A program made the position numbers and the translations under genes. Below, piece after piece: positions 1-36,895 of a DNA stretch of 40,071 nucleotides. The notes below the pieces were generated by a model. That model was given only the letters and a program-made list of their open reading frames with translations, did no database searches and was not told the origin of the DNA. Within the stretch, counting starts at the first letter, position 1. Every line of letters begins with the position of its first letter. The stretch is from Tidjanibacter sp. (GTDB lineage: Bacteria; Bacteroidota; Bacteroidia; Bacteroidales; Rikenellaceae), in NCBI GenBank assembly GCA_017936005.1, contig JAGBGK010000030.1:1-40071 (forward strand). The letters run 5' to 3'.

Positions 1-1314
1 CCTCGCTTGTCGTTCTTCTGGGCTATCGGTATGAACCACTTTATGGAGATTGCCAAGATGAGGGCAGCAAGGCTCTTGTGGGCAAAGATTGTTAAGCAGT
101 TCAACCCCAAGAACCCCAAATCGCTCGCATTGCGTACCCACTCGCAGACTTCGGGTTGGTCGCTCACCGAGCAGGATCCCTTCAACAACGTAGGCCGTAC
201 CGCAATCGAGGCTATGGGTGCTGCACTCGGCCACACCCAGTCGTTGCACACCAACGCTCTGGACGAGGCTATCGCACTTCCTACCGACTTCTCGGCTCGT
301 ATTGCTCGTAACACCCAGATCTACATTCAGGAGGAGACTAACGTATGCCGCTCGGTTGACCCCTGGGCAGGCTCGTACTATGTTGAGAGCCTCACCAACG
401 AGATTGCTCACAAGGCTTGGGAGCACATCCAGGAGATTGAGAAACTTGGTGGTATGGCCAAGGCTATCGAGACCGGTATTCCAAAGATGCGTATCGAGGA
501 GGCTTCGGCTCGCAAGCAGGCTCACATCGACTCCGGCGAGGAGATTATCGTAGGTCTGAACCGCTACCGTTTGGAGAAGGAGGCACCCATCGACATCCTG
601 GCTGTGGACAACACCGCAGTTCGTGAGAGCCAGGTTAAGAGGTTGCAGGAGTTGCGTGCTTCGCGCGACGAGGCAGCCGTACAGAAGGCTCTTGCAGCAC
701 TCACCGAGTGCGTTAAGACCAAAGAGGGCAACCTGCTCGAGTTGGCAGTTGAGGCTGCTAAAGTGAGGGCAACTCTGGGCGAGATTTCGGACGCTTGCGA
801 GGTTGTTGTTGGTCGCTACAAAGCAGTTATCCGTTCCATTTCTGGTGTATATTCGAGTGCTATGAAGAACGATGCAGATTTTGCAAAAGCAAAAGAGATG
901 GTTGCCGACTTCGCTAAGAAGGAGGGCCGCCAGCCCCGTATTATGATTGCCAAACTTGGTCAGGACGGCCACTACCGTGGTGCAAAGGTTGTTGCTACGG
1001 GTTATGCCGACCTCGGCTTCGACGTGGATATGGGCCCCTTGTTCCAGACTCCTGAGGAGGCTGCCAAGCAGGCTGTTGAGAACGATGTACACGTTGTTGG
1101 TGTATCGTCGTTGGCAGCAGGCCACCTCACCCTTGTTCCTCAGATTATTGCCGAGTTGAAGAAACTCGGTCGTGAGGACATCGTGGTAATCGTGGGTGGT
1201 GTAATTCCCGCTCAGGACTACGAGGAGCTCTATCAGGACGGTGCCGCCGCCATCTTCGGCCCCGGTACCCCTGTGGCTACTGCGGCAATCAAGATTATGG
1301 AGATTCTCGCATAA
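1..1314 (+). CDS. mutB: Methylmalonyl-CoA mutase large subunit, 5'-truncated by the window edge
   Basis: Adenosylcobalamin-dependent interconversion of succinyl-CoA and (R)-methylmalonyl-CoA, a step of the propionate/succinate pathway of Bacteroidales; acts in the cytoplasm as a heterodimer with a small subunit. The frame is open from base 1, so the true start lies upstream and the first 437 codons seen are the C-terminal part of a protein of roughly 700 residues. The visible part holds the end of the TIM-barrel catalytic domain ([16 protein letters not shown] near residues 44-59, then [22 protein letters not shown]) and a complete B12-binding domain. The latter shows the base-off cobalamin motif DGHYRG at about 322-327 (His 324 is the lower cobalt ligand), followed by SSLAAGH and GGVIPAQD. 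The intact B12 domain identifies the catalytic large subunit. The stop codon is fused to a palindromic repeat that acts as a terminator. The partner small subunit is not in the window. Confidence 0.95.
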
Positions 1315-1436
1315 AACGCATATTGCACAGCAACTGCTGTGTTGCACTGCGATAAACCACCTCCTCATTTACGTCAGTAAACTGCGGAGGTGGTTTTCTT
1401 GTGCGCCTTGCATTTGCAGCACACTATGCGTTTTCT
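1312..1436 (+). repeat. Palindromic element A, copy 1 (divergent)
   Basis: A long imperfect palindrome that begins at the TAA stop of the mutase gene. The outer arms are AACGCA (1315-1320) and TGCGTT (1427-1432), and a side hairpin CACAGC/GCTGTG lies at 1326-1341. The central part is stem ACCACCTCC, then TCA (1365-1367), inner stem TTTAC/GTAAA around loop GTCA (1368-1381), then CTGC (1382-1385) and closing arm GGAGGTGGT. The same arrangement with different but still complementary stems recurs at 15943-15989, 27085-27213 and 35134-35260. Confidence 0.8.
1354..1400 (+). terminator. Rho-independent terminator of the mutase gene (centre of repeat A copy 1)
   Basis: An 11-bp stem (1354-1364 with 1386-1396) encloses the inner TTTAC/GTAAA hairpin and runs into a short T-rich stretch. 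It lies 40 bases after the stop codon. Confidence 0.7.
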
Positions 1437-14300: not shown

Positions 14301-14331
14301 AGTTTGGGTGGGCTCTTTCCCTATTTCGATT

Positions 14332-14348
14332 GGGGGTTACCCCCCCCC
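14332..14348 (+). other. G5-TTA-C9 hairpin and homopolymer just before the RNase G start
   Basis: Five Gs (14332-14336), TTA, then nine Cs (14340-14348), ending ten bases before the ATG at 14358. Five G-C pairs can form in several registers next to the ribosome-binding region. The C9 tract is the longest GC homopolymer I noticed in the window. Confidence 0.6.
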
Positions 14349-14357
14349 TATTCATCT

Positions 14358-15905
14358 ATGAACAGAGAACTAATAATTGAAGTTACCGCCTCGGAGGTTA
14401 CCATTGCTCTGGTTGAGGACAAACAACTCGTTGAGTTGAGCAAGGAGGCCTGCAAGAGCGGTTTCGCAGTTGGCGACATCTATCTGGGCAAAGTGCGTAA
14501 AATTATGCCCGGATTGAATGCCGCATTCGTCAATATTGGCCACGAAAGGGACGCTTTTATTCACTATCTGGACCTCGGTCCTCATTTTACTTCGCTCCAC
14601 AAACTTGTGGCCAGCCTTTCGACGAAGAAGAAAAACGTGCGATTTGAGAGCATCAGGCTCGACCAGCCGCTCCCCAAGAGCGACAAGTTGTCGAACCATA
14701 TTTCGGGCGGACAGCCCATTATGGTGCAGATTGCAAAGGAGGCAATCAGCACAAAAGGCCCAAGACTTACGGCCGACATTTCGCTCGCAGGTCGCAATGT
14801 AGTATTGATTCCGTTTTCCAACAAAATATCCATATCGCAGAAGATTCGTTCCACGGCCGAAAAGAAGAGGCTCAAAAAGATTGTCGACAATGTTTTGCCC
14901 AAGAACTACGGTGTGATTGTGCGTACTGCCGCACAGGGCAAGAGTGACGTTGATATTGAGCAGGATATCCTCTCGCTCATCAAGAAGTGGGAGCAGGCTT
15001 TGGAGGGCATCAAAACGAAGGTGCCACCCATACAGTTGCTCAGCGAGATGAGCAGGGCCAACACCATCATTCGTGATTCGCTCAACAGTTCGTTCAACGC
15101 CATACACGTTAACGACGAGGCTATATACAACGAAATCAGGGAGTATGTGAAAGTTATTGCTCCCGAGAAACTCAAAATCGTTAAACTCTACAAGGGCTCG
15201 CAACCCATCTTCGACAACTTCGACATCTCGCGACAGATTAAGTCGCTGTTTGCCAAGTATGTGTCGCTCAAAAGGGGAGCCTATCTTATCATCGAGCACA
15301 CCGAGGCTCTGCACGTTATTGATGTCAATAGCGGCAACCGTGCGAAGGTGGCGGATGACCAGGAGAGTACTGCGATGGATGTTAACCTCTCGGCTGCGGC
15401 CGAAATCGCCCGACAGTTGCGCTTGCGCGATATGGGCGGTATTGTGATTGTCGACTTCATCGACCTGCACAAGGCGGAGAATCGACAGAAGCTCTACGAG
15501 GAGATGCAGAAACTGATGGCCGGAGATAAGGCCAAGCACACCATTCTCCCGCTCACCAAATTTGGCCTGATGCAGATCACCCGCCAGAGGGTGCGTCCGG
15601 AGGCTATCAGTAAGGCCGAGGAGACATGTCCTACTTGTGGTGGTACGGGTAAGATTTCGCCTTCGATACTTGTGGATAAGCAGATTGAGAACCAGATTGC
15701 CTACTACGCCATCGAGAAACGTATGCGCTCGTTGAGGGTGGTTGCCAACCCCATTTTGGCAGCCTACCTGAAAGAGGGTGGTTTGAGGAGTATTCGCCGC
15801 AGGTGGTGCAGACGTTACCTATGTAGGGTGAAGGTGGTTGTAGACCAATCGTTGGGTATTGTGGACTACAAGATTACGGACCGCAAGGATAAGGAGCTTA
15901 AATAG
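14358..15905 (+). CDS. rng: Ribonuclease G/E family endoribonuclease
   Basis: A single-strand-specific endoribonuclease acting in rRNA maturation and mRNA turnover. The chosen start MNRELIIEV gives 515 residues, the usual length for RNase G without the long RNase E scaffold tail; the frame runs 18 codons upstream through the C tract but without protein-like sequence. An S1 domain covers about 35-120 (VGDIYLGKVRKIMPGLNAAFVNIG). The catalytic Mg-binding aspartates are Asp322 in HVIDVNSGN and Asp366 in GGIVIVDFIDL, spaced about as in E. coli RNase E. The Zn-link CPTCGGTG (Cys424/Cys427) that joins two subunits is intact. A hairpin with a C9 tract sits just before the start. A repeat-rich 264-base gap follows. 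Confidence 0.93.
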   Translation: MNRELIIEVTASEVTIALVEDKQLVELSKEACKSGFAVGDIYLGKVRKIMPGLNAAFVNIGHERDAFIHYLDLGPHFTSLHKLVASLSTKKKNVRFESIRLDQPLPKSDKLSNHISGGQPIMVQIAKEAISTKGPRLTADISLAGRNVVLIPFSNKISISQKIRSTAEKKRLKKIVDNVLPKNYGVIVRTAAQGKSDVDIEQDILSLIKKWEQALEGIKTKVPPIQLLSEMSRANTIIRDSLNSSFNAIHVNDEAIYNEIREYVKVIAPEKLKIVKLYKGSQPIFDNFDISRQIKSLFAKYVSLKRGAYLIIEHTEALHVIDVNSGNRAKVADDQESTAMDVNLSAAAEIARQLRLRDMGGIVIVDFIDLHKAENRQKLYEEMQKLMAGDKAKHTILPLTKFGLMQITRQRVRPEAISKAEETCPTCGGTGKISPSILVDKQIENQIAYYAIEKRMRSLRVVANPILAAYLKEGGLRSIRRRWCRRYLCRVKVVVDQSLGIVDYKITDRKDKELK

Positions 15906-15942
15906 GCGAGCATATCTCGTGGGCGGTAACTGCGTTACACTC

Positions 15943-15989
15943 GACCTTGAAATCCTCATTTGCGTGCGGCAAACTGCGGTTTCTCGGTC
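15943..15989 (+). repeat. Palindromic element A, core-only copy
   Basis: Located 38 bases after the RNase G stop. It has outer pieces GACC (15943-15946) / GGTC (15986-15989) and GAAA/TTTC, then CC, TCA (15956-15958), inner stem TTTGC/GCAAA around GTGCG, CTGC (15974-15977) and GG. The invariant TCA and CTGC internal loop is kept while both stems differ from the other copies. The AAAACGCA ends and T-run of the full copies are missing. Confidence 0.65.
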
Positions 15990-16040
15990 ATCGCAAGCCT
16001 TGTTCTCTCCTCACGATGTACACTTGCAGGGGTCAGGGCA

Positions 16041-25035: not shown

Positions 25036-27087
25036 ATGGCAACACTTAATGATTTGAGGACCAAAGGCGGTGTGATTGTAACTGTCGTAATCGCACTTGG
25101 TTTGATCGCCTTCCTGCTGGGCGACCTTTTTAGCAATGGCAGCATCTTTACTTCGAGGGCAAACCGCGTGGGTAAAATCGCTGGTAACAACATCGAGTAT
25201 CAGGTTTATGCAAACCAGACCGAGAACGTGAAAAATATCTACTCGCAGCTCTGGGGTACCACCGCATTCGATGCACAGCAGTATGATATGATTTATAACG
25301 AGGCTTGGAATGACCTGTTGATGAACAACTCCTACAAGCCTTCGTTCGAGAAGATGGGTTTGACCATTTCGGATGCCGAGATGGTGGATATGATTCAGGG
25401 TGCTTATGTTTCTCCCGTGATCCGCTCGTTCTTTGCAGACCCTGCAACCGGCGTTTACAGCCCCGAGGTACTCAAAGGCTTCCTCTCGCAGGTTGAGAGC
25501 AACGAGGCAGCTTACAACATCTGGAATTATATCAAGAGGCGTGTTGCAGAGCAGCGCTTGGTACAGAACTACACCACTCTGGTGGGTGCAGGTTTTGTTG
25601 CAAACGATGCAGAGGTTAAAGGTTCGGTAAAGGCAGCCAACACCGCTGCTAACGTGAAAATCGTTGTTAAGCCCTACTACACCATCGCAGACTCGTTGGT
25701 TGCTCCCGTTAAGGACGCTGCAATCAAGAAATACTACGAGGAGCACAAAGAGCTCTATCGTCAGAGCACCTCGCGTGAGGTTGATTACGTTGTCTTCAAT
25801 GTTGAGCCTTCGGAGGCCGACTATGCAGAGGCAAAAGAGGCAGTTGAGGCTTTGGCAGAGGAGTTCAAGGCAGCCGAGAATGTAATGCAGTTTGCTGTGG
25901 CTAACTCCTATGAGAGGCCCGACAGCCGCTACTACTCGCGTGAGAACATCCCCGCAGCCTACAAAGAGTTGGCTTTTGGTAAGGAGAAATTTATCGCTCC
26001 CAAGCTCAATGGTACAACCTACACTATGTCGCGCGTTGCAGACGTACGCAATATGCCCGACTCGCTCGAAGCTCGCCACATCCTCTTCTCCTTCGACCAG
26101 AAGGAGTTGGCCGACAGCGTAGCAAAAGCACTCCGTGGTGGTGCTTCGTTCGCTGAGTTGGCAGAGAAATACTCGCTCGACCAGGCTTCTGCTGTTGATG
26201 GTGGTAAACTCGGTAGGTTCGCTCCCGAGCAGATGGTGCCCGAGTTTAGCGATGCACTCATCGATGCAAAAGTAAAACAGATTGTTACCATTGAGAGTCA
26301 GTTCGGTATCCACGTAGCACAGGCTACTTGGAAGTCGAAACCCGTACGCAAAGCACAGATTGCAACTGTAACCTACGATGTTGTTGCAGGTGACGCTACC
26401 ATTCAGGCTGCAATGAACGAGGCTAACGCCTTCATCGCTGCTGCCGCTAAGAGCGACTTCGCCGGTGCCGTTAGCGAGCTCGGTTTGTCGAAGCGTACCG
26501 CACGCATCGGTAACACCGACCGCAACGTTAACGGTCTGAACGAGGCTCGTGAGCTCATTCGCTGGGCCTACAACAACAAGGCTGGCAAAGTGTCGGGTGC
26601 TATGGAGATTGATGGCGACTTTGTAGTTGCAACCGTTAAGACCATCCGCGAGGAGGGTTATATGCCCGTGAAGGATGTTGCTGCTCGTATCGCACAGGAG
26701 TTGCGTAACGAGGAGAAGGCTGCTTGGGTTGCTGAGCAGGTTGCAGGCATCGCTACTATCGACGAGGTTGCCGAGAAACTTGGTGTAGAGGTTATCTCTG
26801 CCGAGGAGGTTTATGGCAACGCTAACAACATCTCCGGTGTTGGTCCCGATATGGCTCTCGTGGGTGCTATTGCAGCAGCCGAGGAGGGTGTAGTTGCAGG
26901 TCCCGTTGAGGGTAACTATGGTGTATACCTCTTCACCGTTGAGGGTCGCACCACTGCCGACAACGCAACTGTTGAGAGCGAGAAAGTTCGTCTTGACTCT
27001 TCGTCGCTCTTCTACATCAACGAGCGTATTGACCAGGCTTTGGTTGAGGGTTCGGAGATTGTAGACAACCGTGTGAAATTCTTCTAA
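25036..27087 (+). CDS. ppiD: PpiD/SurA-like periplasmic peptidyl-prolyl isomerase
   Basis: A 683-residue membrane-anchored foldase. A single N-terminal membrane anchor (about 12-30, GVIVTVVIALGLIAFLLGDLF) precedes a SurA_N-type chaperone region with YQVYANQTENVKNIYSQLWG. A parvulin domain lies around residues 345-440, with LEARHILFSF, then FAELAEKYSLDQASAVDGGKLGRFAPEQMVPEFSDAL, the canonical PpiC signature. A long helical C-terminal chaperone region ends FF. The size and layout match PpiD of Bacteroidetes, which helps outer-membrane proteins fold. It follows lptC and the CNNM gene and may be transcribed with them or from its own -7 box. The TAA stop is fused to palindromic element A. Confidence 0.92.
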   Translation: MATLNDLRTKGGVIVTVVIALGLIAFLLGDLFSNGSIFTSRANRVGKIAGNNIEYQVYANQTENVKNIYSQLWGTTAFDAQQYDMIYNEAWNDLLMNNSYKPSFEKMGLTISDAEMVDMIQGAYVSPVIRSFFADPATGVYSPEVLKGFLSQVESNEAAYNIWNYIKRRVAEQRLVQNYTTLVGAGFVANDAEVKGSVKAANTAANVKIVVKPYYTIADSLVAPVKDAAIKKYYEEHKELYRQSTSREVDYVVFNVEPSEADYAEAKEAVEALAEEFKAAENVMQFAVANSYERPDSRYYSRENIPAAYKELAFGKEKFIAPKLNGTTYTMSRVADVRNMPDSLEARHILFSFDQKELADSVAKALRGGASFAELAEKYSLDQASAVDGGKLGRFAPEQMVPEFSDALIDAKVKQIVTIESQFGIHVAQATWKSKPVRKAQIATVTYDVVAGDATIQAAMNEANAFIAAAAKSDFAGAVSELGLSKRTARIGNTDRNVNGLNEARELIRWAYNNKAGKVSGAMEIDGDFVVATVKTIREEGYMPVKDVAARIAQELRNEEKAAWVAEQVAGIATIDEVAEKLGVEVISAEEVYGNANNISGVGPDMALVGAIAAAEEGVVAGPVEGNYGVYLFTVEGRTTADNATVESEKVRLDSSSLFYINERIDQALVEGSEIVDNRVKFF

Positions 27088-27213
27088 AAAAAACGCAGAT
27101 TGCGGGTGCATTTTGCACCAAAATTCAGAGAGCGAGTTCCTCACCTACGTTGGTAGGCTGCGGACTCGCTCCTTCTTTTGGCACAAAATCCCCTCCTCAC
27201 TTTGCGTTTTTTT
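27085..27213 (+). repeat. Palindromic element A, copy 2
   Basis: Begins at the TAA of the ppiD-like gene and ends GCGTTTTTTT. Outer arms AAAACGCA/TGCGTTTT, then CCAAAA/TTTTGG, then GAGCGAGT with ACTCGCTC, CC, TCA (27141-27143), inner stem CCTAC/GTAGG around GTTG (27144-27157), CTGC (27158-27161), GG. It is nearly identical to copy 3 at 35134-35260 and likely acts as a terminator for the gene before it. Confidence 0.85.
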
Positions 27214-27245: not shown

Positions 27246-27283
27246 TCTTTTAAAAAGGGCCTTTCACGTCGTTCCTCATTTAC

Positions 27284-27395
27284 GGGTATCTTTTTTAATA
27301 CTCGTGCCGTAGGCACACCTCAATTAACCCACCTTTGGTGGCTTTTAGTTGCTCCCGCTCGGCACAGGCGTTGCCTGTTTTGTGTAGATGTTAGG
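27284..27395 (+). repeat. Cluster of triloop hairpins and inverted fragment of element B
   Basis: Holds GTGCC-GTA-GGCAC (27304-27316), CCACC-TTT-GGTGG (27329-27341) and ACAGGC-GTT-GCCTGT (27364-27378). The last, with TTTTGTGTAGATG after it, is the reverse complement of the middle of element B. The piece GGGTATCTTTTTTAATAC (27284-27301) resembles GGGTATC...ATACCC at 35489-35505. No coding potential is supported here. Confidence 0.65.
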
Positions 27396-27457
27396 TCTGC
27401 ACCTCTTCGAGCCTTTGGATGCCAGCAAGCGCCCTCTGCTCTCGCTTACTCGCAACT

Positions 27458-27488
27458 TTTTCAATTTTCCATTTTCAATTTTCAATTC
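27458..27488 (+). repeat. TTTTCAA heptamer tandem
   Basis: About four units of TTTTCAA/TTTTCCA in a row. A related TCAATTTTCAATTC stretch lies at 35453-35466. Confidence 0.75.
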
Positions 27489-27511
27489 TGCACTGCACTT
27501 TGCGTTTTTTG

Positions 27512-27764
27512 TGTTGTGGGGCTTGCTGACGTTTGAAAGAACTGCCACCTATCATCTACACAAAACGGCCTGTGGCCGCGCACTTTGCGTTCTTTTGGGT
27601 GTGGGGCTTGCCGACGTTTGAAAGAGTCGCTACCTACCATCTACACAAATCAGGCAACGCCTGCGCACTTTGCGTTTTTTGTGTTGTGGGCTTGCTGACG
27701 TTTGAAAGAACTGCCACCTATCATCTACACAAAATGGCCTGTGGCCGCGCACTTTGCGTTTTTT
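27512..27764 (+). repeat. Element B: tandem array of three ~85-bp units
   Basis: Units start near 27512, 27598 and 27682. Each reads GTTGTGGGGCTTGCTGACG, TTTGAAAGA, then ATCTACACAAA, a 4-6 bp triloop hairpin, and GCGCACTTTGCGTTTTTT (first unit TTCTTTT). The hairpins are CGGCC-TGT-GGCCG, CAGGC-AAC-GCCTG and TGGCC-TGT-GGCCG: the sequence changes, the pairing stays. The right end, CACTTTGCGTTTTTT, equals the right end of element A. A single unit occurs at 35262-35347. The stretch 27088-27902 has no supported gene. Confidence 0.85.
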
Positions 27765-27780
27765 ACCGTCAACCGTCAAA

Positions 27781-27854
27781 TTCCCATAGGCCCTAGTAGC
27801 CATAGCCAAACTATGGCATCGGGTCATCTATGGCGACTACTAGTGATAGGGGAA
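27781..27854 (+). repeat. Large palindrome near the end of comF
   Basis: CTAGTAGCCATAG (27793-27805) pairs with CTATGG (27828-27833) plus CTACTAG (27837-27843) across a three-base bulge. The outer TTCCC/GGGGAA extends it, and an alternative inner hairpin CCATAG-CCAAA-CTATGG can form. It is preceded by ACCGTCAACCGTCAA. Confidence 0.7.
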
Positions 27855-27856
27855 TA

Positions 27857-27905
27857 AGAGTAATAAGAGTATTTACTAATTACTCTTTACTAATTACTCT
27901 TTTTA
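27857..27905 (+). repeat. TAATAAGAG / CTAATTACTCTTTA tandem block overlapping the comF stop
   Basis: AATAAGAGT twice, then CTAATTACTCTTTA twice, ending in the TTTTTA that includes the comF stop codon on the minus strand. Related to the blocks at 16118-16141 and 35390-35414. Confidence 0.65.
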
Positions 27906-28604
27906 GTCTCGATGTGCAGTGGCGAGTGTGGCAATACTGATGCGTACATCGGGGACAGAGCGTAGGATGGCCATTGCGCACGATTGGATGGTTGCTCCCG
28001 TGGTAAACACATCATCCACCAACAATATGTGTTTGCCCGCAAGTTTTTCCGGATGGCGTACGGCAAAGATATCCCTCACATTATCCCATCTTTTCGAGCC
28101 TCGGGTGAGCGCTTGGCTAGGGTTGTGTCGTGTGCGCACTACATTACCAACCGAAAGCGGAACACCCAATACACGAGTAAGACCCTCTCCGATATAGTCG
28201 GATTGGTTGTAGCCCCTACGCAATTTCTTGAACGGATGTAGTGGAATCGGAACGACCACATCTACCCCAAGGAACACCTCACTTGCCAACAAGTCGTGGC
28301 CCATCCACTCGCCAAAGTCGCGAGCTACGCGCCAATGTCCGCGGTACTTGAAATCGTGTATGGCCCTACGCCAGCCACTCTCGTGAGAGGGAAAGTAAAA
28401 TAGTGCCGAGGCTCGCTCGATGGGCACGATGCCCCAAAATGTGCGGTAGAGCGAGTTGTCCACGTCGTGTGCATAGCCTGTGAGGGGTGCTGTGAGTTTG
28501 CATCGAGTGCACACACAACTCTCGCCCTCCAACAAGATTGCCCCACACACCGGACAAAGGGGTGGAACAAACAGACTAATTATGTCGGCAATTGGGTTTT
28601 TCAT
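27903..28604 (-). CDS. comF: ComF family phosphoribosyltransferase-like protein
   Basis: A 233-residue protein of the ComF/GntX family, whose members are associated with DNA uptake and DNA metabolism. An N-terminal zinc-ribbon-like set has Cys17, Cys20, Cys32 and Cys35 (CPVC...CTRC), followed by AIHDFKYRGH. Next come VVPIPLHPFKKLRRGYNQS, and a PRPP-binding loop HILLVDDVFTTGAT (Asp197/Asp198). All are standard and the length is normal. It starts 33 bases after the stop of priA on the same strand and is likely co-transcribed with it. Its stop codon lies in a repeat block. Its substrate is unknown in the family as a whole. Confidence 0.93.
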   Translation of the reverse strand: MKNPIADIISLFVPPLCPVCGAILLEGESCVCTRCKLTAPLTGYAHDVDNSLYRTFWGIVPIERASALFYFPSHESGWRRAIHDFKYRGHWRVARDFGEWMGHDLLASEVFLGVDVVVPIPLHPFKKLRRGYNQSDYIGEGLTRVLGVPLSVGNVVRTRHNPSQALTRGSKRWDNVRDIFAVRHPEKLAGKHILLVDDVFTTGATIQSCAMAILRSVPDVRISIATLATAHRD

Positions 28605-28637
28605 GGTAGATATGCCCCCATTTGATATACATTCTCC

Positions 28638-30902
28638 CTACTGTGGGTCAACATTTACAGCCACCGAGATGCGTTTTGTAACCTTGTCGTGGGAAAACTC
28701 TCCGAGAGCTTCACGGATGAGTGCTTTAACCTCCGAGGGTGAGCGACCTTTCTCGATGCGTACCATAATCTCCATAAAGAACATTTCGGCCGTACGCCCC
28801 ACCGAGGGGATATGTGCGTCGGTTACGGCTTCGGGGCCGATGAGTTCTTTGAGTCGTGAGGCCAAACGGCGTGCACCAAATGATAGGAACTCATAGGAGG
28901 TGTGTTTGAGCGACAACACCACAAGTCGTGCAAAGGGTGGGTAGCCAAAGGTCTCTCGGTCGCGTATCTGACTACGTGCCATTGCATAGTAATCACCTGC
29001 GGCTGCTTGTCGTATTGTGGCGTTGGTGGGCTGCGAAGTCTGAATCACGGTACGTCCGCAGTTGTCCTTACGCCCTGCACGGCCCGTTATCTGTACGAGG
29101 GTTTGGAATGTGCGCTCGTCGGCACGGAAGTCGGGGCGGGAGAGGAGATTGTCGGCATTGAGTACACCCACCACCGATACACCTTCGAAATCGAATCCTT
29201 TGGTGATGAGATTTGTGCCAACGAGGATGTCGGTTTGTCCACTCTCGAAACCATTTATGATGGAACGCATACGTCCACGAGAGGATGCGGTGTCGCCATC
29301 AAGCCTCGCAACCCTTGCTGTGGGAAACATCTCCACCACCGACTCTTCGATTTTCTCGGTGCCAAAACCTTGTGGTTGTGGCTCGGAGATGCGGCACGAG
29401 GGGCACTTGGAAGGTGAGGATGTGGTGTAGCCGCAGAGATTGCAACGCAGTCGGCGGTCGCCTTTGTAGTAGGTGAGCGTTACGCCACACTGTGGACAAC
29501 GGGCGCTCCAACCGCAGTCGGGACACTCAATATAGGGGGCGAAGCCTCTCCTGTTTTGGAACAACATAACTTGTCGGCCTTTGGATAGGGCGGTATTTAT
29601 GTCGTCATACAACTCCTTGTTGATGTGGCCCTTGCGCTCTCCTCGCTTGGCGCTGCGTATGGTGTCGGAGATGTGTACTTGTGGCAACTCACCGCTTCCG
29701 TACCTCTCGCCCAAGGTGACATAGCCATATTTGCCCATATAGGCATTGTGGAAACTTTCGAGCGAGGGGGTGGCACTGCCGAGTATGGTTTTGGCACCCA
29801 AGTTGCCTGCAATCCACACAGCAGTATCTCGTGCCGAGAAACGGGGGGCAGTGTCCTCCTGCTTGTAGCTACGGTCGTGCTCCTCGTCTACGATTATCAA
29901 TCCGAGGTTGGTCAAGGGAAGGAGAATGGCCGAGCGAGTGCCTACAATAATATACCCACCCTCACTGCGGGATAGTTTGATGTATGCCTCGGTGCGGGCA
30001 CGGGGTGTGAGTTGCGAATGATAGACCACAAGGCCCTCGTCAAATGCTTCCGAAAGTCGGCTGATAAGGTGCTCGGATAGGGCAAGCTCGGGTACAAGGT
30101 ATAGCACAGAGCGGCCTTTGGCCAACATCTCGGCAGCAAGAGATATGTACAACTCTGTCTTGCCACTACCCGTAATGCCGTGTAGAAGTGTGGTGTTTCG
30201 GCGGTCGAGTTCGGAGTGGAGCTTGTCTAGTGCCTGCTGCTGTGCCTCGGAAAGGGTACGCTGTCGGCTCAGCGATGCCAAATAGTATTGCGGTGTGCGC
30301 TCACGGAGGGTGGAAACCAGCAATCCATCCTCGATGAGGTGGTTTATGATGGGAGTGGCTGCCGAAAGAGCTTTACGTGGAATCTCGGTGTCCAACCCTC
30401 CATCGTCCACAACCTCTAAAAACTCTACCATCGCGGCATAACGTGCCTTGCGGCGGGGGAGAAGAGCATCGAGTGCTGTGGATAGTTTGTGCTCGTCCCG
30501 CAGGTCGGGAGCAATGGATAGCCACTGCACCTGTCCGAGCGAGAATACTCGCTCTGCAAAGTCGTCGTCTGTACCCGCCGAGGGCTTCAAAAGCGATGGT
30601 ATTGCAGCCCTCATAACCTCGCCCTCGGTGCACATATAATATGATGCAATCCACTCCCACAGAGCGAGTTGCTCCACCGAAGCAAGGGGCTCGCTACGCA
30701 CCACCCCCATCACCTCGCGAATCTTCTTGTAGGGAGGTCTTGTGGTGTGTATGCGCTTGATGATACCGGTGTAGATTTTGGTTCCGACGGGTACCTCCAC
30801 ACCCCATCCGACCTCAAATTCTTCGCTCCTTTCGGCGGGAATGGCAAAGGTTAGAGGCCCCAAAGCAAGGGGAACGATTATGTCGGCATAGAGATTTTCC
30901 AC
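28638..30902 (-). CDS. priA: Primosomal protein N' (replication restart helicase PriA)
   Basis: A 754-residue 3'-5' helicase that reloads the replisome at collapsed forks. The start is GTG at 30902. The N-terminal 3'-DNA-binding domain (VPLALGPLTFAIP, VEVPVG) is followed by Walker A GITGSGKTE (242-250), DEEH (339-342), and GSATPSLES. Eight zinc-binding cysteines form four CxxC pairs (460/463, 469/472, 487/490, 500/503). Next are the helicase motif GTNLITKGFDFEGVSVVGVLNAD, and QITGRAGRK. Nothing is missing. The region between it and the divergent membrane protein gene is under 100 bases, so the two promoters must overlap or lie close. comF follows. Confidence 0.96.
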   Translation of the reverse strand: MENLYADIIVPLALGPLTFAIPAERSEEFEVGWGVEVPVGTKIYTGIIKRIHTTRPPYKKIREVMGVVRSEPLASVEQLALWEWIASYYMCTEGEVMRAAIPSLLKPSAGTDDDFAERVFSLGQVQWLSIAPDLRDEHKLSTALDALLPRRKARYAAMVEFLEVVDDGGLDTEIPRKALSAATPIINHLIEDGLLVSTLRERTPQYYLASLSRQRTLSEAQQQALDKLHSELDRRNTTLLHGITGSGKTELYISLAAEMLAKGRSVLYLVPELALSEHLISRLSEAFDEGLVVYHSQLTPRARTEAYIKLSRSEGGYIIVGTRSAILLPLTNLGLIIVDEEHDRSYKQEDTAPRFSARDTAVWIAGNLGAKTILGSATPSLESFHNAYMGKYGYVTLGERYGSGELPQVHISDTIRSAKRGERKGHINKELYDDINTALSKGRQVMLFQNRRGFAPYIECPDCGWSARCPQCGVTLTYYKGDRRLRCNLCGYTTSSPSKCPSCRISEPQPQGFGTEKIEESVVEMFPTARVARLDGDTASSRGRMRSIINGFESGQTDILVGTNLITKGFDFEGVSVVGVLNADNLLSRPDFRADERTFQTLVQITGRAGRKDNCGRTVIQTSQPTNATIRQAAAGDYYAMARSQIRDRETFGYPPFARLVVLSLKHTSYEFLSFGARRLASRLKELIGPEAVTDAHIPSVGRTAEMFFMEIMVRIEKGRSPSEVKALIREALGEFSHDKVTKRISVAVNVDPQ

Positions 30903-30965
30903 GACGAGTGATTAATTGATTGAATAATTTAGACAAAAATATGAAAAAATCGGGAGAAAAATGCG

Positions 30966-30973
30966 TATCTTCG
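30966..30973 (+). promoter_or_regulatory. Possible -7 box of the YitT-type gene
   Basis: TATCTTCG resembles TAnnTTTG and lies 24 bases before the preferred start at 30998. There is no clear -33 box. Confidence 0.35.
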
Positions 30974-30997
30974 TGGACGAATTACACGAATAAAATA

Positions 30998-31960
30998 ATG
31001 ACAACTGCAAAACCAAAATTAGGCGAGGTCGGTAAACTCATCCGCGACTTCGTAATCATCACTCTCGGTGTGGCTCTCTATGCCTTCTCTTGGACGGGTG
31101 TTATTATGCCTGCCGATGGTGTGGGTGGTGGTGCCACGGGTTTTTCGCTGCTGGTTTACTATATGACCGGTGGTGCAAACGGAGGTATCCCGATTGGTGT
31201 TACATTTATTATCTTTAACGCTATATTTCTCGGAATATGCGTGGTGTTGCTGGGAGCCAAGTTTGGCATTAAGACCATCTACGCCATTGTGGTAACATCC
31301 ATAATGATGACCATTTTCCAAGAGTTATTGCCTCCCGAAGCCAACGTGCTTGGTTTGGCAGACGACCGCTTGTTGTCGTCCATTTTGGGAGGTGCGCTGT
31401 CGGGTATTGGTATCGCAACCTGCTTGTTGGTAGGCGGCAGTACGGGTGGTAGCGACCTTATTGCAATGATTGTCTGCAAGTTCTACAATGTTAGTTATAG
31501 CCAAGTGGTTGTTGTGGTTGATATCTTCATCATCGGAGCATCCTATTTTATCTTCCACGATTGGGCAACCACAATCTATGGTTTCATTGTTACGGCTGTG
31601 TTTGGCTACACCAGCGACCTTGTGCTGTCGGGAAACAAGCAGTCGTTGCAGCTCTTTGTCTTCTCGAAGGACTACGCCAAGATTGCCGATATGATTACTA
31701 TGCAACTCGGCCGTGGAGCAACCATCCTCGACGGTACAGGTTGGTATTCCAAGCAGCCGGTGAAGGTGGTGATGCTCATCTGCCGTAGGAGCGAGATGGG
31801 TATGATGATGCGCAGTATCAAGAGCGTGGACCCCAAGGCATTCATTTCGGTTGCCAACGTAATGGGCGTGTATGGAGAGGGTTTTGATAAGTATAAGATG
31901 CCTAAAAAGCCGGCAGAAATAAAACCCGTAAAACACGACAATAGCGAAAGTCTTGTTTAG
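30998..31960 (+). CDS. YitT family membrane protein (DUF161/DUF2179)
   Basis: A 320-residue inner-membrane protein with about five to six hydrophobic segments in the first 230 residues (DFVIITLGVALYAFSWTGVIMP, GVTFIIFNAIFLGICVVLLGA, ILGGALSGIGIATCLLVGGSTGGSDLIAMI and VVVVVDIFIIGASYFIF). A cytoplasmic DUF2179 domain follows (GRGATILDGTGWYSKQPVKVVMLICRRSE). The GGSTGGSD motif and domain order are canonical for the YitT family, whose transport role is unproven. The frame continues 26 codons upstream, but that part is not protein-like and overlaps a possible -7 box, so ATG 30998 is chosen. It is divergent from priA and followed 62 bases later by metG. Confidence 0.88.
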   Translation: MTTAKPKLGEVGKLIRDFVIITLGVALYAFSWTGVIMPADGVGGGATGFSLLVYYMTGGANGGIPIGVTFIIFNAIFLGICVVLLGAKFGIKTIYAIVVTSIMMTIFQELLPPEANVLGLADDRLLSSILGGALSGIGIATCLLVGGSTGGSDLIAMIVCKFYNVSYSQVVVVVDIFIIGASYFIFHDWATTIYGFIVTAVFGYTSDLVLSGNKQSLQLFVFSKDYAKIADMITMQLGRGATILDGTGWYSKQPVKVVMLICRRSEMGMMMRSIKSVDPKAFISVANVMGVYGEGFDKYKMPKKPAEIKPVKHDNSESLV

Positions 31961-32022
31961 TGGTTAGCATTCAGCATTTATTGGTCAAACTATTAGCAAA
32001 TTGAATAAAACCGACATAAAAA

Positions 32023-34059
32023 ATGAAGAAAGATTTCAAAAGATATTTGGTAACATCGGCACTGCCCTATGCCAATGGCCCCGTACACATCGGCCACTTG
32101 GCGGGCGTGTATGTGCCTTCGGACATCTATGTTCGCTATCTGCGTTTGCGTGGTAAGGATGTGGTATGGGTGTGTGGTAGTGATGAGCACGGTGTGCCCA
32201 TCACCATCAAGGCCCGCAAGGAGGGTGTGACACCCCAAGACGTGGTGGATAAGTATAACGACATCATCAAACGCTCCTTCGAGGGCCTCGGTATATCGTT
32301 TGATATCTACTCACGTACCACCTCGCCCACTCACCGCGAAACAGCCTCAGAGTTCTTCCGCACCCTCTACGAAAAGGGTGTTTTCTCGGAGGCAACTTCG
32401 CAGCAGTACTACGATGAGGAGGCAAAAACATTCCTTGCCGACCGCTACATCACGGGTACCTGTCCCCACTGCCAGAGTGAGGGTGCCTATGGCGACCAGT
32501 GTGAGAAGTGTGGCTCGACGCTCAACCCCACAGACCTCATCAACCCCAAGAGTATGATTTCGGGCTCGGCTCCGGTGATGAAAGAGACCACCCACTGGTA
32601 CCTGCCATTGGATAAGTATGAGGGCAAACTCAGGGAGTGGATTTTGGAGGGACACAAGGAGTGGAAGACCAACGTCTATGGCCAATGTAAGTCGTGGCTC
32701 GATATGGGCCTCCAACCCAGGGCGGTGAGCCGCGATTTGAATTGGGGTATTCCCGTACCCGTGGAGGGTGCCGATGGTAAGGTGCTCTACGTTTGGTTTG
32801 ATGCTCCCATTGGTTACATCTCTGCAACCAAAGACCTCACACCCGATTGGGAGAAGTATTGGAAGAGCGAGGATACGAAGATGGTACACTTCATCGGTAA
32901 GGACAACATCGTGTTCCACTGCATCGTGTTCCCCACAATGCTGATGGCCCACGGCGACTACATCCTGCCCGAGAATGTGCCTGCCAACGAGTTCCTGAAT
33001 CTTGAAGGCGACAAGATTTCCACTTCGAAGAATTGGGCTGTGTGGCTCAATGAGTACCTCGAAGAGATGCCTGGTAAGCAGGATGTGCTCAGGTATGTGC
33101 TGTGTGCCAATGCTCCCGAGACCAAGGATAACGATTTCACTTGGAAGGACTATCAAGCTCGCAACAACAACGAACTTGTGGCTGTGTTGGGTAACTTTGT
33201 AAACCGTGCATTGGTGCTTACTCACAAATATTATAATGGTGTTGTACCCGAAGCCAGCGAACTTACCGACTACGACAAAGAAATCCTTGCCGAGCTGCCC
33301 AAGATGAAGGTAGCTTTGGAGGATAATATCGAAACCTACCGTTTCCGTGAGGCTTTGAAGGAGGCAATGAACATTGCCCGTTTGGGTAATAAATACCTTG
33401 CCGACACCGAGCCTTGGAAGGTGGTTAAGACCGACCCAGAGAGGGTTAAGACCATCCTCAATGTGGCTCTCCAAATTGTGGCCAACACAGCGGTTGCCAT
33501 CGAGCCCTTTATGCCTTTTAGTGCTGAGAAGATTACCTCGATGTTGGCTGTGGGCAAGTTGAAGTGGGATATGATTGGTCGCAGCGACCTTGTACCCGCA
33601 GGCCACACCATCGGTAAGGCCGAGTTGCTGTTCGAGAAGATTGAGGACGATGTGATTGAGCGTCAGGTGAAGAAACTCGAAGATGCAAAGGCTGCTAATC
33701 TTGCGGCTAATGCCGAGGTCCCCGAGCAGAAGGAGAGTGTTACGTTTGACGACTTTGGCAAGATGGATATCAGGGTGTCGACCGTGGTGGCTGCCGAGAA
33801 GGTTGCAAAGACCAAAAAACTCCTTAAACTCACGGTAGATACCGGCATTGACACTCGTACCATTGTGTCGGGCATAGCCGAGTATTACACTCCTGAGGAG
33901 TTGGTTGGCAGGCAGATTTTGGTGCTTGTGAACCTGTTGCCGAGGGAGCTGAAAGGTATCACCTCGCAGGGTATGATTCTTATGTCGGCCGATGCCACAG
34001 GTCGCCTCACTCTGTTGGCCCCCACCGATAAGGTGCCCAACGGCTCGCAGGTGGGATAG
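32023..34059 (+). CDS. metG: Methionyl-tRNA synthetase
   Basis: A 678-residue enzyme that charges tRNA-Met. The Rossmann core has HIGH at 22-25 ([10 protein letters not shown]) and the KMSKS-type loop KISTS at 331-335, the variant usual in MetRS of this phylum. A zinc knuckle is formed by Cys147, Cys150, Cys160 and Cys163 (CPHC...CEKC). The C-terminal ~105 residues ([19 protein letters not shown]...[10 protein letters not shown]) are an EMAP-II-like tRNA-binding domain that also mediates dimerisation. Length and domain order are normal. No T-box or other leader element was recognised in the 62-base gap before it. ilvE begins 60 bases downstream with no terminator between, so an operon is possible. 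Confidence 0.97.
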
Positions 34060-34119
34060 CAGCTACCGACAGTGCTTTTGGAAAAGAACAAACCTAAAAC
34101 TATACAAAAAAACTACGAA

Positions 34120-35136
34120 ATGAAAGAGATTAAATGGCAGGAGCTTGGTTTTAGCTATGTTAAAACCGACTACAATGTCCGCTGTGTGTGGAAAGATGGC
34201 GCGTGGGGCGAGATTGAGGTGAGCGATAGCGAGTACCTCCCCATCCATATGGCTGCCACCTGTCTGCACTATGGCCAGGAGGTCTTCGAGGGCCTCAAAG
34301 CATTCCGAGGCGTGGATGGCAAGGTGCGTATTTTCCGTTTGGAGGAGAACGCAAAGCGTATGCAGCGTTCGGGTGAGTATTTGAGGATGCAGGTGCCCAG
34401 CATCGAACTCTTTGAGGAGATGTGTGTGAAGGCCATCCAAGCCAATGCGGAGTATATTCCTCCCTATGGTACGGGTGCTTCGCTCTACTTGCGTCCGCTG
34501 CTGATTGGTACGGGTGCGCAGGTGGGTGTTAAGGAGTCCACCGAGTACACATTCATTGTCTTTGTCACCCCCGTGGGCCCATACTTCAAGGAGGGTTTCA
34601 AACCGATTACCGTCACTTTGGAGCGTACCTACGATAGGGCTGCACCTCGTGGTACGGGTCACACCAAGGTTGGTGGTAACTATGCAGCATCGATTGGCTC
34701 CGGTTCGAGGGCTCACGCTGCAGGTTTTTCCAACTGCCTCTATTTGGACCCTAGCGAGAAGAAGTATATTGATGAGTTTGGTGCTGCCAACTTCTTTGGC
34801 ATTAAGGATGGTTCCTACATCACTCCCGACTCAACCTCGGTGTTGCCTTCGATTACCAATATGTCGTTGCGTACCCTGGCCGAAGATTTGGGTTTGAAGG
34901 TAGAGAATCGTAAAGTTCCCGTTGAGGAGTTGCCCACCTTTGAGGAGGTTGGTGCTTGTGGTACGGCTGCGGTTATCTCGCCCATTGGTCGCATCTTTGA
35001 CCCCAAGACGGAGGAGTATGTGGAGTATGGCACCGAGGCTGGTCCTTGGTGTGTGAAGCTCTACACTCTTTTGCAGGACATTCAGTATGGTCGCACGGAG
35101 GATACTCACGGTTGGGTTACTTACGTCGAAGCATAA
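34120..35136 (+). CDS. ilvE: Branched-chain amino acid aminotransferase
   Basis: A 338-residue PLP-dependent fold-type IV enzyme that makes Leu, Ile and Val from their 2-oxo acids. Typical features are HYGQEVFEGLKAFRG, LRPLLIGTG, and the PLP lysine Lys183 in GHTKVGGNYAAS. Also present are NCLYLDPSEKKYIDEFGAANFFG and the phosphate-binding end GTAAVISPIGRI. The start MKEIKWQEL is preferred over a start 16 codons earlier, because the intervening sequence is the A-rich leader that precedes most genes here. The TAA stop is fused to palindromic element A copy 3, the likely terminator. Confidence 0.95.
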   Translation: MKEIKWQELGFSYVKTDYNVRCVWKDGAWGEIEVSDSEYLPIHMAATCLHYGQEVFEGLKAFRGVDGKVRIFRLEENAKRMQRSGEYLRMQVPSIELFEEMCVKAIQANAEYIPPYGTGASLYLRPLLIGTGAQVGVKESTEYTFIVFVTPVGPYFKEGFKPITVTLERTYDRAAPRGTGHTKVGGNYAASIGSGSRAHAAGFSNCLYLDPSEKKYIDEFGAANFFGIKDGSYITPDSTSVLPSITNMSLRTLAEDLGLKVENRKVPVEELPTFEEVGACGTAAVISPIGRIFDPKTEEYVEYGTEAGPWCVKLYTLLQDIQYGRTEDTHGWVTYVEA

Positions 35137-35260
35137 AAAACGCAGATTGCGGGTGAATTTTGCACCAAAATTCAGAGAGCGAGTTCCTCACCTACGTTGG
35201 TAGGCTGCGGAGTCGCTCCTTCTTTTGGCACAAAATTCACCTCGCACTTTGCGTTTTTTT
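35134..35260 (+). repeat. Palindromic element A, copy 3 (best preserved)
   Basis: Begins at the TAA of ilvE, ends GCGTTTTTTT. The arms pair almost throughout: AAAACGCA/TGCGTTTT, GTGAATTTTG/CAAAATTCAC, CCAAAA/TTTTGG, GAGCGA with the right arm, CC, TCA (35188-35190), CCTAC/GTAGG around GTTG, CTGC (35205-35208), GG. It differs from copy 2 mainly in the lower stem, where the pairing is better here. Confidence 0.87.
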
Positions 35261-35261
35261 A

Positions 35262-35347
35262 GGTTGTGGGGCTTGCTGACGTTTGAAAGAGTCGTTACCT
35301 ACCATCTACACAAAACGGCCTTAGGCCGCGCACTTTGCGTTTTTTTT
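35262..35347 (+). repeat. Element B, single unit
   Basis: Directly follows element A copy 3. Same left part GTTGTGGGGCTTGCTGACG, ATCTACACAAAA, hairpin CGGCC-TTA-GGCCG (35316-35328), right end GCGCACTTTGCGTTTTTTT. Confidence 0.85.
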
Positions 35348-35530
35348 AGTCTAACGTCTATCGTCTAACGACTTTTTCCCAATTAGTAATTGGTAAAGAG
35401 TAATTAGTAAATATTTTCCCTTTCTGCACTTTCTGCCTTTTCTGCTCTTTTGTCAATTTTCAATTCCCTTTCTGCACTTTCTGCCCTCGGGTATCTTTAA
35501 TACCCAAGAATATCAAGGAGTGCCCTAACT
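35348..35530 (+). repeat. Mosaic of short tandem repeats
   Basis: GTCTAACG-type units (35349-35370), AATTAGTAATTGG and TAATTAGTAA (35380-35410), CTTTCTGC units (35420-35450 and again 35468-35485), TCAATTTTCAATT (35453-35465), then hairpin GGGTAT-CTTTA-ATACCC (35489-35505). No gene is supported between 35137 and 35608. Confidence 0.7.
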
Positions 35531-35555
35531 CTCAATTCTCCTCCCTTGCTACCCA

Positions 35556-35590
35556 AAACAAAAGCCCCCTCGAATTGAGGAGGCTTTGGG
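35556..35590 (-). terminator. Terminator of the Omp85-type gene
   Basis: Minus strand stem AAAGCCTCCTC / GAGGGGGCTTT (pairing 35577-35587 with 35561-35571, one mismatch), then TGTTTTGGG. Confidence 0.7.
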
Positions 35591-35608
35591 GTTGTGTGTC
35601 GTGTCGGT

Positions 35609-36895
35609 TTAGAAAATGTAGTTGGTGCCGATGTTCAGGCCACCCTTACCATCCCTCTTATCGAGTGGCATACCATACTCAACCGAGATGATGAAGTTGT
35701 GGTTCATCACAAGTTTCAGACCCGCACCAACGCTGGTGTGGATACCACCTGCATCCTCGCCACTATAAATGGGGTTGGCACCGGGAACAAAGGAGGTGAT
35801 GAGTGAACTCAAATCGCTTGCCTGCTTGTCGAAGGCCCTCGACTTGGTGATGATACCCATATCCACAAAGGGGTTGGTGGCAACATACCAATTCTGCTTG
35901 AAGAGGCGGAAGTTGGCGAGTTTCACCCTTGCCTCAAAGTTGGCCCAAGCGTAGCCGTCGGCCAAGATACGGTTCTGGAATACGCCACGCACCGAGTTCT
36001 TACCACCGAGGCCCTCGTTTTTAATCTGGCGAAGGTAGAGGGGAGTGGTGGTCTGCTGCAAGTAGAAGGGAGCATTGCCAAAGGTCTGCTGCCAATTCAC
36101 ACGATAGCCCAACACCACCTTGTCACCTACTACGGGGAAGAACTGTCGCCAAGTGGCCATAATGCGGCCATAGGCCTCGGCATCGCCAAAGAGGGCGGGC
36201 GAGAAGCTACCCACAATCTCGGCGCAGTAGCCCTTGGTGGGTGCAGCCTCCATATCACGGGTGTCATAGACAAGGCCCGCTTTGAGTTCGAGGTGGGTGC
36301 CTGCAACTTCGTTGTCGCTGATAAGGCCGCTTTCTGTGTACAACTTATAGAGAGAAACCTCGTTTTTGTATTTGTCGAGCTCCACATTGCCTGTGGTTAC
36401 GTTCCAGAATGTGAGGCCGGCCATCCAAGTCAAGCGGTCGGAGATGTTACCCTGCACATCGGCAATACCACGCAGCATTGTGCGGTCCATATAGTAGAAC
36501 GAACTGCCGCTGGTGAGGTCGTAGTCCAAAGGCGAAGCATAGCCGTTGAAGCCGTAGAAAGGCGACATTGCCGAGTCGAGATAGCTCACGGCTGCCGTGA
36601 GTCGCAGGCCGGGGATGAGGTACTTCGAGTCGTAGAAGAGGTGTGCGATGGTCTCGCCCTTGGTGTAGCGCGAGAGCTCTACGTTGAATTTGTGGAGGTA
36701 GGTGGGGTAGGTGCTACCGTCGCCAAAGTAGAAGAAGTCGCACAGTGCGCCATACTGAAAGCCGAGGTCGCTATTGTAGCTCACGGCGGGCAGGGGGCCG
36801 AGGTTCCAACCCGTTTTAGCCTCCTCTTTTGCCTGTGCGCTTGCTCCGAGGGCAATCATTACGCAGGCCAACGAAAGAATAATCTGTTTTTTCAT
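35609..36895 (-). CDS. Omp85/BamA-type outer membrane barrel without POTRA domains
   Basis: A 428-residue exported protein; start MKKQIILSLACVMIALGASA before Gln. The 32 codons upstream in frame lack protein character. There are no POTRA repeats: after a short linker (AKEEAKTGWNLGPLPAVSYNSDLGFQYG) the chain is a 16-strand-size barrel. Omp85 hallmarks are YDTRDMEAAPTKGYCAEI, the lid-loop-like motif KNSVRGVFQNRI (cf. VRGF/Y), ANFEAR, and a C-terminal strand GLNIGTNYIF ending in Phe. It is therefore like the barrel-only surface-antigen (D15) proteins. It follows the DUF819 gene by 40 bases and ends at a terminator. The function is unknown; the neighbouring membrane proteins give no direct clue. 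Confidence 0.8.
   Translation of the reverse strand: MKKQIILSLACVMIALGASAQAKEEAKTGWNLGPLPAVSYNSDLGFQYGALCDFFYFGDGSTYPTYLHKFNVELSRYTKGETIAHLFYDSKYLIPGLRLTAAVSYLDSAMSPFYGFNGYASPLDYDLTSGSSFYYMDRTMLRGIADVQGNISDRLTWMAGLTFWNVTTGNVELDKYKNEVSLYKLYTESGLISDNEVAGTHLELKAGLVYDTRDMEAAPTKGYCAEIVGSFSPALFGDAEAYGRIMATWRQFFPVVGDKVVLGYRVNWQQTFGNAPFYLQQTTTPLYLRQIKNEGLGGKNSVRGVFQNRILADGYAWANFEARVKLANFRLFKQNWYVATNPFVDMGIITKSRAFDKQASDLSSLITSFVPGANPIYSGEDAGGIHTSVGAGLKLVMNHNFIISVEYGMPLDKRDGKGGLNIGTNYIF

Follow-up and report, generated by a model that had tools for sequence, protein, structure and literature searches.

Gene-end palindromes in a Tidjanibacter contig belong to a dispersed, probably mobile hairpin family with a core shared across bacterial phyla

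Four palindromes behind stop codons

The window, by which is meant the whole stretch of 40,071 nucleotides analysed here (contig JAGBGK010000030.1 of Tidjanibacter sp., assembly GCA_017936005.1), contains four copies of an imperfect palindrome. Each lies behind a gene on the same strand, and the first base of all four is the base following a stop codon. The genes, copies and cores are:

7..1314, + strand, methylmalonyl-CoA mutase, C-terminal part, ending at copy 1
1315..1434, + strand, copy 1, beginning right after TAA; arms GTGTTGCAC / GTGCGCCTTGC, inner stem TTTAC/GTAAA
1362..1387, + strand, core of copy 1, TCCTCA..CTGCGG
14304..15905, + strand, ribonuclease E/G family gene, ending at copy 2
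15906..16027, + strand, copy 2, beginning right after TAG; arm motifs TGCGTTAC / GCAAGCCTTG, inner stem TTTGC/GCAAA
15953..15979, + strand, core of copy 2
25036..27087, + strand, SurA/PpiD-like peptidyl-prolyl isomerase, ending at copy 3 (orthologous site 2 below)
27088..27213, + strand, copy 3, beginning right after TAA; GCACC/GGCAC class, inner stem CCTAC/GTAGG
27138..27163, + strand, core of copy 3
34072..35136, + strand, class IV aminotransferase, probably of the branched-chain type, ending at copy 4 (orthologous site 1 below)
35137..35259, + strand, copy 4, beginning right after TAA; same class as copy 3
35185..35210, + strand, core of copy 4

A sequence-only reading of the window had described a shared architecture in which CC is followed by TCA facing CTGC, a five-base inner stem, a loop and GG, and this arrangement is present at all four loci. 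The loci it listed are real, but the second extends over about 15906-16027 rather than 15943-15989, and its loop starting with GT is found in some copies only, the loops of others starting with GA, GC, CG or AT. One possible reading of TCA opposite CTGC is a U.C mismatch and a bulged C alongside two pairs. The pattern CCTCAN{12,18}CTGCGG matches the window five times, against 0.11 matches expected; four of these are the reported loci, and the fifth (4227-4252, minus strand) has an unpaired inner stem. With 94% identity between copies 3 and 4, the four loci do not count as independent. Copy 4 (35137-35259) folds at -64.1 kcal/mol (z -9.8). A run of five Ts (T5) is absent from copies 1 and 2, the T-run of copy 1 comprising four only and copy 2 having none at its end.

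Several other repeats surround the elements. The right end of the element, GCACTTTGCGTTTTTT, appears again at 27495, 27580 (with one mismatch), 27665 and 27749, a spacing of 84-85 nt, and also at 35330, behind a unit with GGCTTGCTGACG and CACAAAACGGCC..GGCCGC (regions 27495-27764 and 35256-35345); this unit is a repeat that finishes in the element's terminator end and from which the core is absent. Degenerate tandem heptamers (GTCTAAC, GTCCAAC, GTCGACC, GTCAACC) lie right behind many copies, both in the window (16148-16168, 27216-27250 and 35358-35376) and in right flanks elsewhere. An AT-rich repeat type, TATTTACTAATTACTCTTTACTAATTACT, is present in both orientations near three of the four window copies (16108-16151, 27870-27898 and 35374-35417). 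Copy 2 is the only window copy with the widespread arm motifs TGCGTTAC/GCAAGCCTTG, and it adjoins the gene for an RNA-processing enzyme, RNase E/G, which may be chance. Direct repeats of about 102-105 nt at 10112-13499 lie inside an open reading frame (ORF) of 1292 aa on the minus strand (9621-13499) and thus encode a repeat protein.

Copies in the source genome

The source genome (G000) comprises 1.97 Mb in 80 contigs and is 89% complete. The pattern CCTCAN{14,16}CTGCGG matches it at 66 places, compared with none for the reversed control, and the inner stem is perfectly paired in 56 of them (TTTGC in 26, TTTAC in 22 and CCTAC in 8); the remaining ten look like chance matches. Further copies in the same genome, on which the sequence-only reading had made its case depend, thus exist. 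The copies are dispersed through the genome, and every one is the centre of an imperfect palindrome of roughly 125 nt. Outer stems vary between loci, and although the copies are palindromic, they share no constant terminal repeat. Several are located within a few hundred bases of contig ends, which suggests that the repeats probably broke the assembly.

Placement relative to genes was assessed for the 41 copies flanked on either side by 380 nt or more, counting same-strand ORFs of at least 100 codons. A long ORF on the + strand ends 25-95 nt before the core in 37 of the 41, compared with 91 of 820 random positions, and 25 of these 37 gene ends fall 44-53 nt before the core, a distance equal to the length of the left arm. 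Long ORFs of the other strand are found behind the core in only 4 of 41. The terminator-like position that had been proposed for the element is thus borne out in this genome. A T5-run is present at the right end in 30 of the 41 copies and an A5-run at the left in 30, with both in 29; most copies therefore have the features of an intrinsic terminator, a stable hairpin and a U-run behind a stop codon, and 11 lack the T5-run. A simple terminator scan of positions 25000-36000 missed the two elements there and picked only tandem relatives of their right ends.

For copies from other genomes, a wider range of 25-110 nt and ORFs of at least 80 codons were used. The remaining loci of Bacteroidales type (judged by title) have a gene end in this range in 44 of 60 cases, the control being 201 of 1200; a set combining loci from Pseudomonadota, Flavobacteriia, Cytophagales, Pseudobacteriovorax and other Bacteroidota gives 14 of 25, the control being 55 of 500. 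On the opposite side, gene ends are likewise above control (17 of 60 and 7 of 25, respectively). For two of the sets with mobile palindromes described below, the family designated f65 (4 of 9, control 36 of 180) and genome G419 (2 of 4, control 5 of 80), the samples are small, and the bias is weak or the sample too small to reveal it.

The same gene ends in related genomes

The regions behind two of the window genes, the aminotransferase (site 1) and the isomerase (site 2), were compared within the genus. The element is present at site 1 in 6 of 22 genomes and at site 2 in 8 of 21, the latter including one variant core and one copy that is cut off after the inner stem. The 29 element-free genome-sites include 19 with a T5-run within 100 nt of the stop codon and 10 with none; by eye, most of the T5 sites that were read have a plain hairpin, and at site 2 of G016, also element-free, the next gene starts after a short gap. 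Congeners thus differ at one and the same gene end: some have the element, often with a different inner sequence, and others have some other sequence, commonly a plain hairpin. This alternation was overlooked in the sequence-only reading.

Three closely related species illustrate both situations. At site 1, G000 has the element and G013 and G017 (aminotransferase 95% identical) have another hairpin. At site 2, the three have the outer stem AAAAAACGCAGATTGCGGG in common and their interiors differ, two being of the GCACC class with different inner arms and one of the GCGTC class. An earlier idea, that the outer stems are old terminators invaded by a module, was dropped because element-free species have a different hairpin at both sites.

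Since the copies at orthologous sites were chosen by position and not by the core pattern, they offer a view of the core itself. In the 14 such copies, the inner stem is paired throughout, which follows from the counting method, CTCA is present in 13 and CTGC in 10. The core is therefore conserved strongly and not absolutely. The sequence-only reading called it invariant; part of the apparent invariance arises because the searches demanded the core letters.

Some copies are interrupted. Behind site 2 in G013 (locus L084), the element is intact to the inner stem and then gives way to unrelated AT-rich sequence up to the contig end, which looks like an insertion in the core. In three genomes there are half-elements with CACAAAACNGCCTNNGGCNGC in place of the left arm (L033:1145-1291, L124 around 330-400, and L085 behind site 2); their junction is at the core's left edge or within a few bases of it, which suggests breakage or exchange near the hairpin tip.

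Structure and covariation

An alignment of 168 copies was thinned to 73 at 72% identity. Five rows that looked recombinant or had unpaired arms, and that would count against the structure, were dropped beforehand, leaving 68. In these, 97.3% of cells pair, compared with about 40% after a one-column shift of the partner, and both sides have changed in 119 cells, compared with 30.6 in shuffles. In the stem adjoining the core, each of the four pairs occurs in three or four Watson-Crick types. The proposal that the folded form is under constraint is thus supported well beyond the window, and stem changes in these divergent copies are matched by compensating ones.

These changes, along with the U-runs and the fixed orientation and distance behind stop codons, are what would be expected of a structured RNA, a protein-bound terminator or 3' UTR element that is vertically inherited and often lost, the mobile forms described below being secondary. 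The resemblance to sX9, a multi-copy, expressed small RNA of Xanthomonas (PMC10924375), points in the same direction. However, wobble pairs are rare on either strand in the stem adjoining the core (7 G.U cells and 10 A.C cells at four pairs in 68 rows), and when whole elements are folded, the + strand gives the better fold of the two in only 8 of 168 copies. The poorer folding of the + strand results mainly from fixed positions, such as the base of the inner stem, which is G.U on the complement but A.C on the + strand. Within helices there are 98 A.C(+) cells and 13 G.T(+) cells, many of these being shared by descent. Taken together, the rarity of wobble on both strands and the folding counts indicate that a purely RNA, + strand reading is not the simplest one. 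They suggest instead that the core marks one strand, and that the arms are a palindrome at the DNA level or act as RNA on both strands. The patchy distribution even inside the genus, and the direct duplications in other bacteria, also argue against a vertically inherited RNA, and we consider this explanation unlikely.

Distribution across bacteria

Within the genus, counts of a loose pattern, made without a check of pairing, exceed the control in 13 of 22 congeners, with 11 to 81 matches where the control has at most 7; the other nine have at most 8 matches, close to background. Outside the genus, G071 has 27 matches (control 3), and G037, G109, G106 and G035 have 11 to 14, the matches listed for G109 being unpaired by eye.

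A stricter pattern, TCCTCAYYTRCN{3,7}GYARRCTGCGG, with 16 letters fixed and 6 half-fixed, was run on a public genome collection and matched at least 109 stretches; about nine chance matches are estimated for the whole collection. Among the matches listed are Rikenellaceae, Alistipes, Tidjanibacter, Bacteroidaceae and Muribaculaceae metagenome-assembled genomes (MAGs), along with Flavobacteriia, Cytophagales, Cryomorpha, Draconibacterium, Pseudoalteromonas, Kangiella, Marinobacterium, Halomonas, a Woeseiaceae, an Alteromonadaceae, two Zetaproteobacteria, a Gallionellaceae and Pseudobacteriovorax. Viral contigs were unmatched by the pattern, and phages and plasmids gave no match to one 76-base query.

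The majority form of 29 chosen copies is ATTnC-tGCGTT ... cTCnAAA-TCCTCA ... CTGCGG-TTT ... GCCTTG. Copy 2 of the window keeps this form, and there are departures from it, for example in L016, L117 and L216. The core TCCTCA[stem]CTGCGG with GCGTT/GCCTTG recurs in other Bacteroidota, in Pseudomonadota and in Pseudobacteriovorax.

A covariance model (R1) was run on 296 genomes of the same phylum, with at most 13 candidates scored per genome, so that counts there are minima. It was positive in 35, of which 30 belong to two genera of a single family, f65, with genomes of 1.6-2.8 Mb; this family looks like Chlorobiaceae. In 27 genomes outside the Rikenellaceae-type MAGs, chosen for holding a hit, the model found 3 to 135 copies each.

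It may be asked whether these are unrelated long hairpins that have converged, the core merely reflecting the search. With 16 fixed and 6 half-fixed letters in the cross-phylum scan, the core letters are indeed selected. The inner stem, however, pairs in 122 of 122 places among the matches listed (109 loci), and this pairing is not forced by the pattern. Two motifs that the pattern does not include, CGTT to the left and GCCT to the right, are found jointly in 33 of 73 divergent copies compared with 0.8 in shuffles, the 27 genomes above hold multiple model hits each, and f65, which has a different inner stem, was found by the model and not by the pattern. Convergence is a most improbable explanation, and the unselected flank motifs refute it.

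Two contigs that hold the core are worth noting. In L144, filed as Chryseobacterium gleum, positions 5780-7293 at the contig end contain tandem units of about 125-127 nt and a 667-nt direct repeat, with two core copies. L193 belongs to a sulphidic-cave MAG filed as Borreliella garinii (G439), in which the core is accompanied by 26 model hits; the species name is probably a mislabel.

Mobile palindromes with the same core

In four genome sets, the core is central in palindromes resembling miniature inverted-repeat transposable elements (MITEs). Their ends, set by consensus chosen by eye, differ, and they are flanked by target duplications of 4, 5 or 8 bp. This, too, was missed in the sequence-only reading. 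In G427 (a Flavobacteriales MAG) and G432 (a Bacteroidia MAG), the ends are GAGACYGTTGATGC, and 5-bp duplications flank 8 of 12 copies (7 of 8 in G427, 1 of 4 in G432) compared with 0 of 132 mixed pairs; two further copies with unrecognised ends were left out. Thirteen more G427 elements with exact ends include 9 with duplications, a count made with no control. In G419 (a Bacteroidales MAG), where the ends are GGCATTTTTCATAA, 8-bp duplications are found in 5 of 16 copies compared with 0 of 240. The G416 (Cytophagales MAG) elements have ends GAAGGCTTTGCA and 5-bp duplications in 3 of 10, compared with 1 of 90. For f65, with ends GGGCACCTCTA, 4-bp duplications are present in 8 of 16, compared with 9 of 240, nine further copies with unrecognised ends having been left out.

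The source genome has no excess of flanking duplications. Together with the lack of a constant terminal repeat, this means that mobility in the source lineage is argued from presence and absence at orthologous sites and by analogy; either the movement is old or copies have passed from one gene end to another by exchange.

Elements with the same ends occur in G427 with and without the core and hold other nested hairpins. At L304-L312, for example, GAGACYGTTGAYGC-ended elements contain nested CCTGACCGCAGCGTCAGG-type hairpins at varying places, with or without the TCCTCA core. It may be that the segment running from GCGTT to GCCTTG, core included, is a separable hairpin module that spreads by itself, lodging in the centres of other palindromes; its carriers would be MITEs of several transposase types and terminator hairpins, and it would move between carriers rather than with one transposon lineage. 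Such a module would be consistent with these G427 elements, with the recurrence of the core and the GCGTT/GCCTTG motifs in palindromes whose ends and duplication lengths differ, with the differing interiors within a common outer stem at site 2, and with the variable outer stems of the source genome. On the other side, no clean pair of palindromes with and without exactly the module plus a junction was found, the difference in G427 could be explained by deletion, the element-free orthologous hairpins lack the element's outer stem (by eye), and a single old lineage whose terminal repeats had diverged would give a similar picture. A self-spreading module is unlikely.

The sequence-only reading also suggested a REP/RAYT-like element. 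Such a repeat would be mobilised, as folded single-stranded DNA, by a Y1 transposase. REPs are indeed resembled by short palindromes that have fixed mismatches and lie near the 3' ends of genes, and one strand is consistently better folded. However, no Y1 transposase (PF01797) was found in the source genome at its 89% completeness, and within the genus the domain is present in 1 of 23 genomes, the one whose pattern count equals the control. No GTAG/CGTC tag is constant at a constant place among the 56 copies (by eye), and target duplications such as those in other genomes are not known to be a product of REP/RAYT (Y1) chemistry. A mechanism of this type is largely refuted and very unlikely.

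Other candidate movers were also sought. ISL3 transposases (PF01610) were found in none of five genomes, and IS1595 (PF12762) gave hits in two of eight that are not flanked by the element's ends. An end-pattern search for an autonomous element in G427 yielded, by eye, nothing beyond single ends and pairs spanning no more than 284 bp. Clustering of 668 neighbouring ORFs from the 109 listed loci gave no transposase among the clusters that span at least three loci; the largest cluster, ABC-type ATPases (by eye), covers 8 loci, and there is no recurring candidate mover.

A probable mobile hairpin at gene ends

The copies in the source genome, their placement, their alternation with other hairpins at orthologous sites, the core that crosses phyla and the duplications elsewhere are probably best explained by a mobile, MITE-like hairpin family that in this genus has settled as gene-end terminators. 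In such a model, the element is dispersed, non-coding and non-autonomous, its centre is a conserved imperfect hairpin, and it would spread via transposases borrowed from other elements. Copies that land at gene 3' ends would be tolerated or kept because RNA polymerase, on transcribing the gene, would make a long hairpin and a U-run and then stop; the A-run on the left may serve a convergent gene in the same way. Exchange between copies could swap the inner part while the site remains occupied. The core, with its U.C mismatch and bulged C, may be kept because some factor binds the folded RNA or a single-stranded DNA hairpin.

A broader proposal is possible, and it is made tentatively. A single asymmetric core, which is conserved in Bacteroidota, Pseudomonadota and Pseudobacteriovorax, a relative of Bdellovibrionota (at least three named phyla), and in the Chlorobiaceae-like family, would be the common centre of gene-end terminators and of mobile palindromes moved by different transposases, with their 4-, 5- and 8-bp duplications. 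It might be a module that is passed between palindromes and read in its folded form by a conserved factor that has yet to be described.

If this is the case, hairpins of a common intergenic class in bacteria, some of them apparently entered in Rfam as the small RNA sX9, would form a single superfamily: mobile palindromes that share a conserved site at which they are read. The replacement of terminators by mobile elements between sister species would become a testable case, and the core would provide a search target for the putative binding factor.

Comparison with known systems

The sequence-only reading recognised no named family, and an Rfam scan of the window gave no match at gathering level. 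Permissive scans gave a chance microRNA match over the element of one copy, and sX9 solely for other variants. In searches of the open literature, the palindrome is nowhere named as one family, and core strings in full texts led to unrelated papers only. The literature covered included the repeat families of Silby 2009 (PMC2718517), GTAG/CGTC REPs (PMC3733652) and an Alteromonas transcriptome (PMC5864184), and a word search of a paper on stem-loop families (PMC2267715) gave no match.

Like intrinsic (Rho-independent) terminators, the element combines a hairpin with a U-run directly behind a stop codon, and it occupies sites where relatives often have plain terminator-like hairpins. Unlike them, it is about 125 nt long and has a conserved, partly mispaired core, and a sizeable minority of copies lack the T5-run. 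Like MITEs, it is short, non-coding, palindromic and dispersed, with terminal repeats and target duplications in G416, G419, G427/G432 and f65. However, the source-genome copies lack constant ends and duplications, one core is common to elements with different ends and duplications of three lengths, and no autonomous partner was found among ISL3 and IS1595 transposases or by an end pattern in G427.

ERIC/IRU, BOX and similar repeats are imperfect palindromes of 100-130 bp that are intergenic and have no transposase of their own; to our knowledge, they are restricted to a few genera. By description, the element resembles them in size, imperfect palindromy, intergenic location and lack of a transposase, and it differs in that its core crosses phyla and its orientation to the upstream stop codon is fixed. 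REPs have been described as hairpins close behind upstream ORFs (PMC3733652), and the element's hairpins are placed likewise. Compared with REPs and BIMEs, the element is three to six times longer, no tag was seen, and no RAYT was found in the genome. Integron attC sites, which have RYYYAAC/GTTRRRY end boxes and occur in cassette arrays, were considered as well; the copies here are dispersed through the genome.

The closest entry is RF02228, the Xanthomonas small RNA sX9. Among ten TGTAC-stem copies scanned, eight align with its model over the core and right arm at 26.9-35.8 bits (L223 and L227 are unmatched), as does a single Gallionellaceae copy at 26.3 bits; every match lies at the core on the + strand and scores below the gathering threshold of 44. 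Sixty relatives gave no match, nor did any control genome. In the literature, several sX9 genes shift expression in one Xanthomonas strain (PMC10924375), and sX9 is counted among the 20 most prevalent annotated bacterial small RNAs (PMC9029176); where PMC6337395 mentions it, this is among annotations only. The sX9 model spans the right half only, without the palindrome, ends or placement of the element. It starts, however, within the same kind of core (AUGUAC..GUACACUCCGG), and sX9 looks like a distant relative. If so, sX9-type small RNA annotations may be transcribed repeats.
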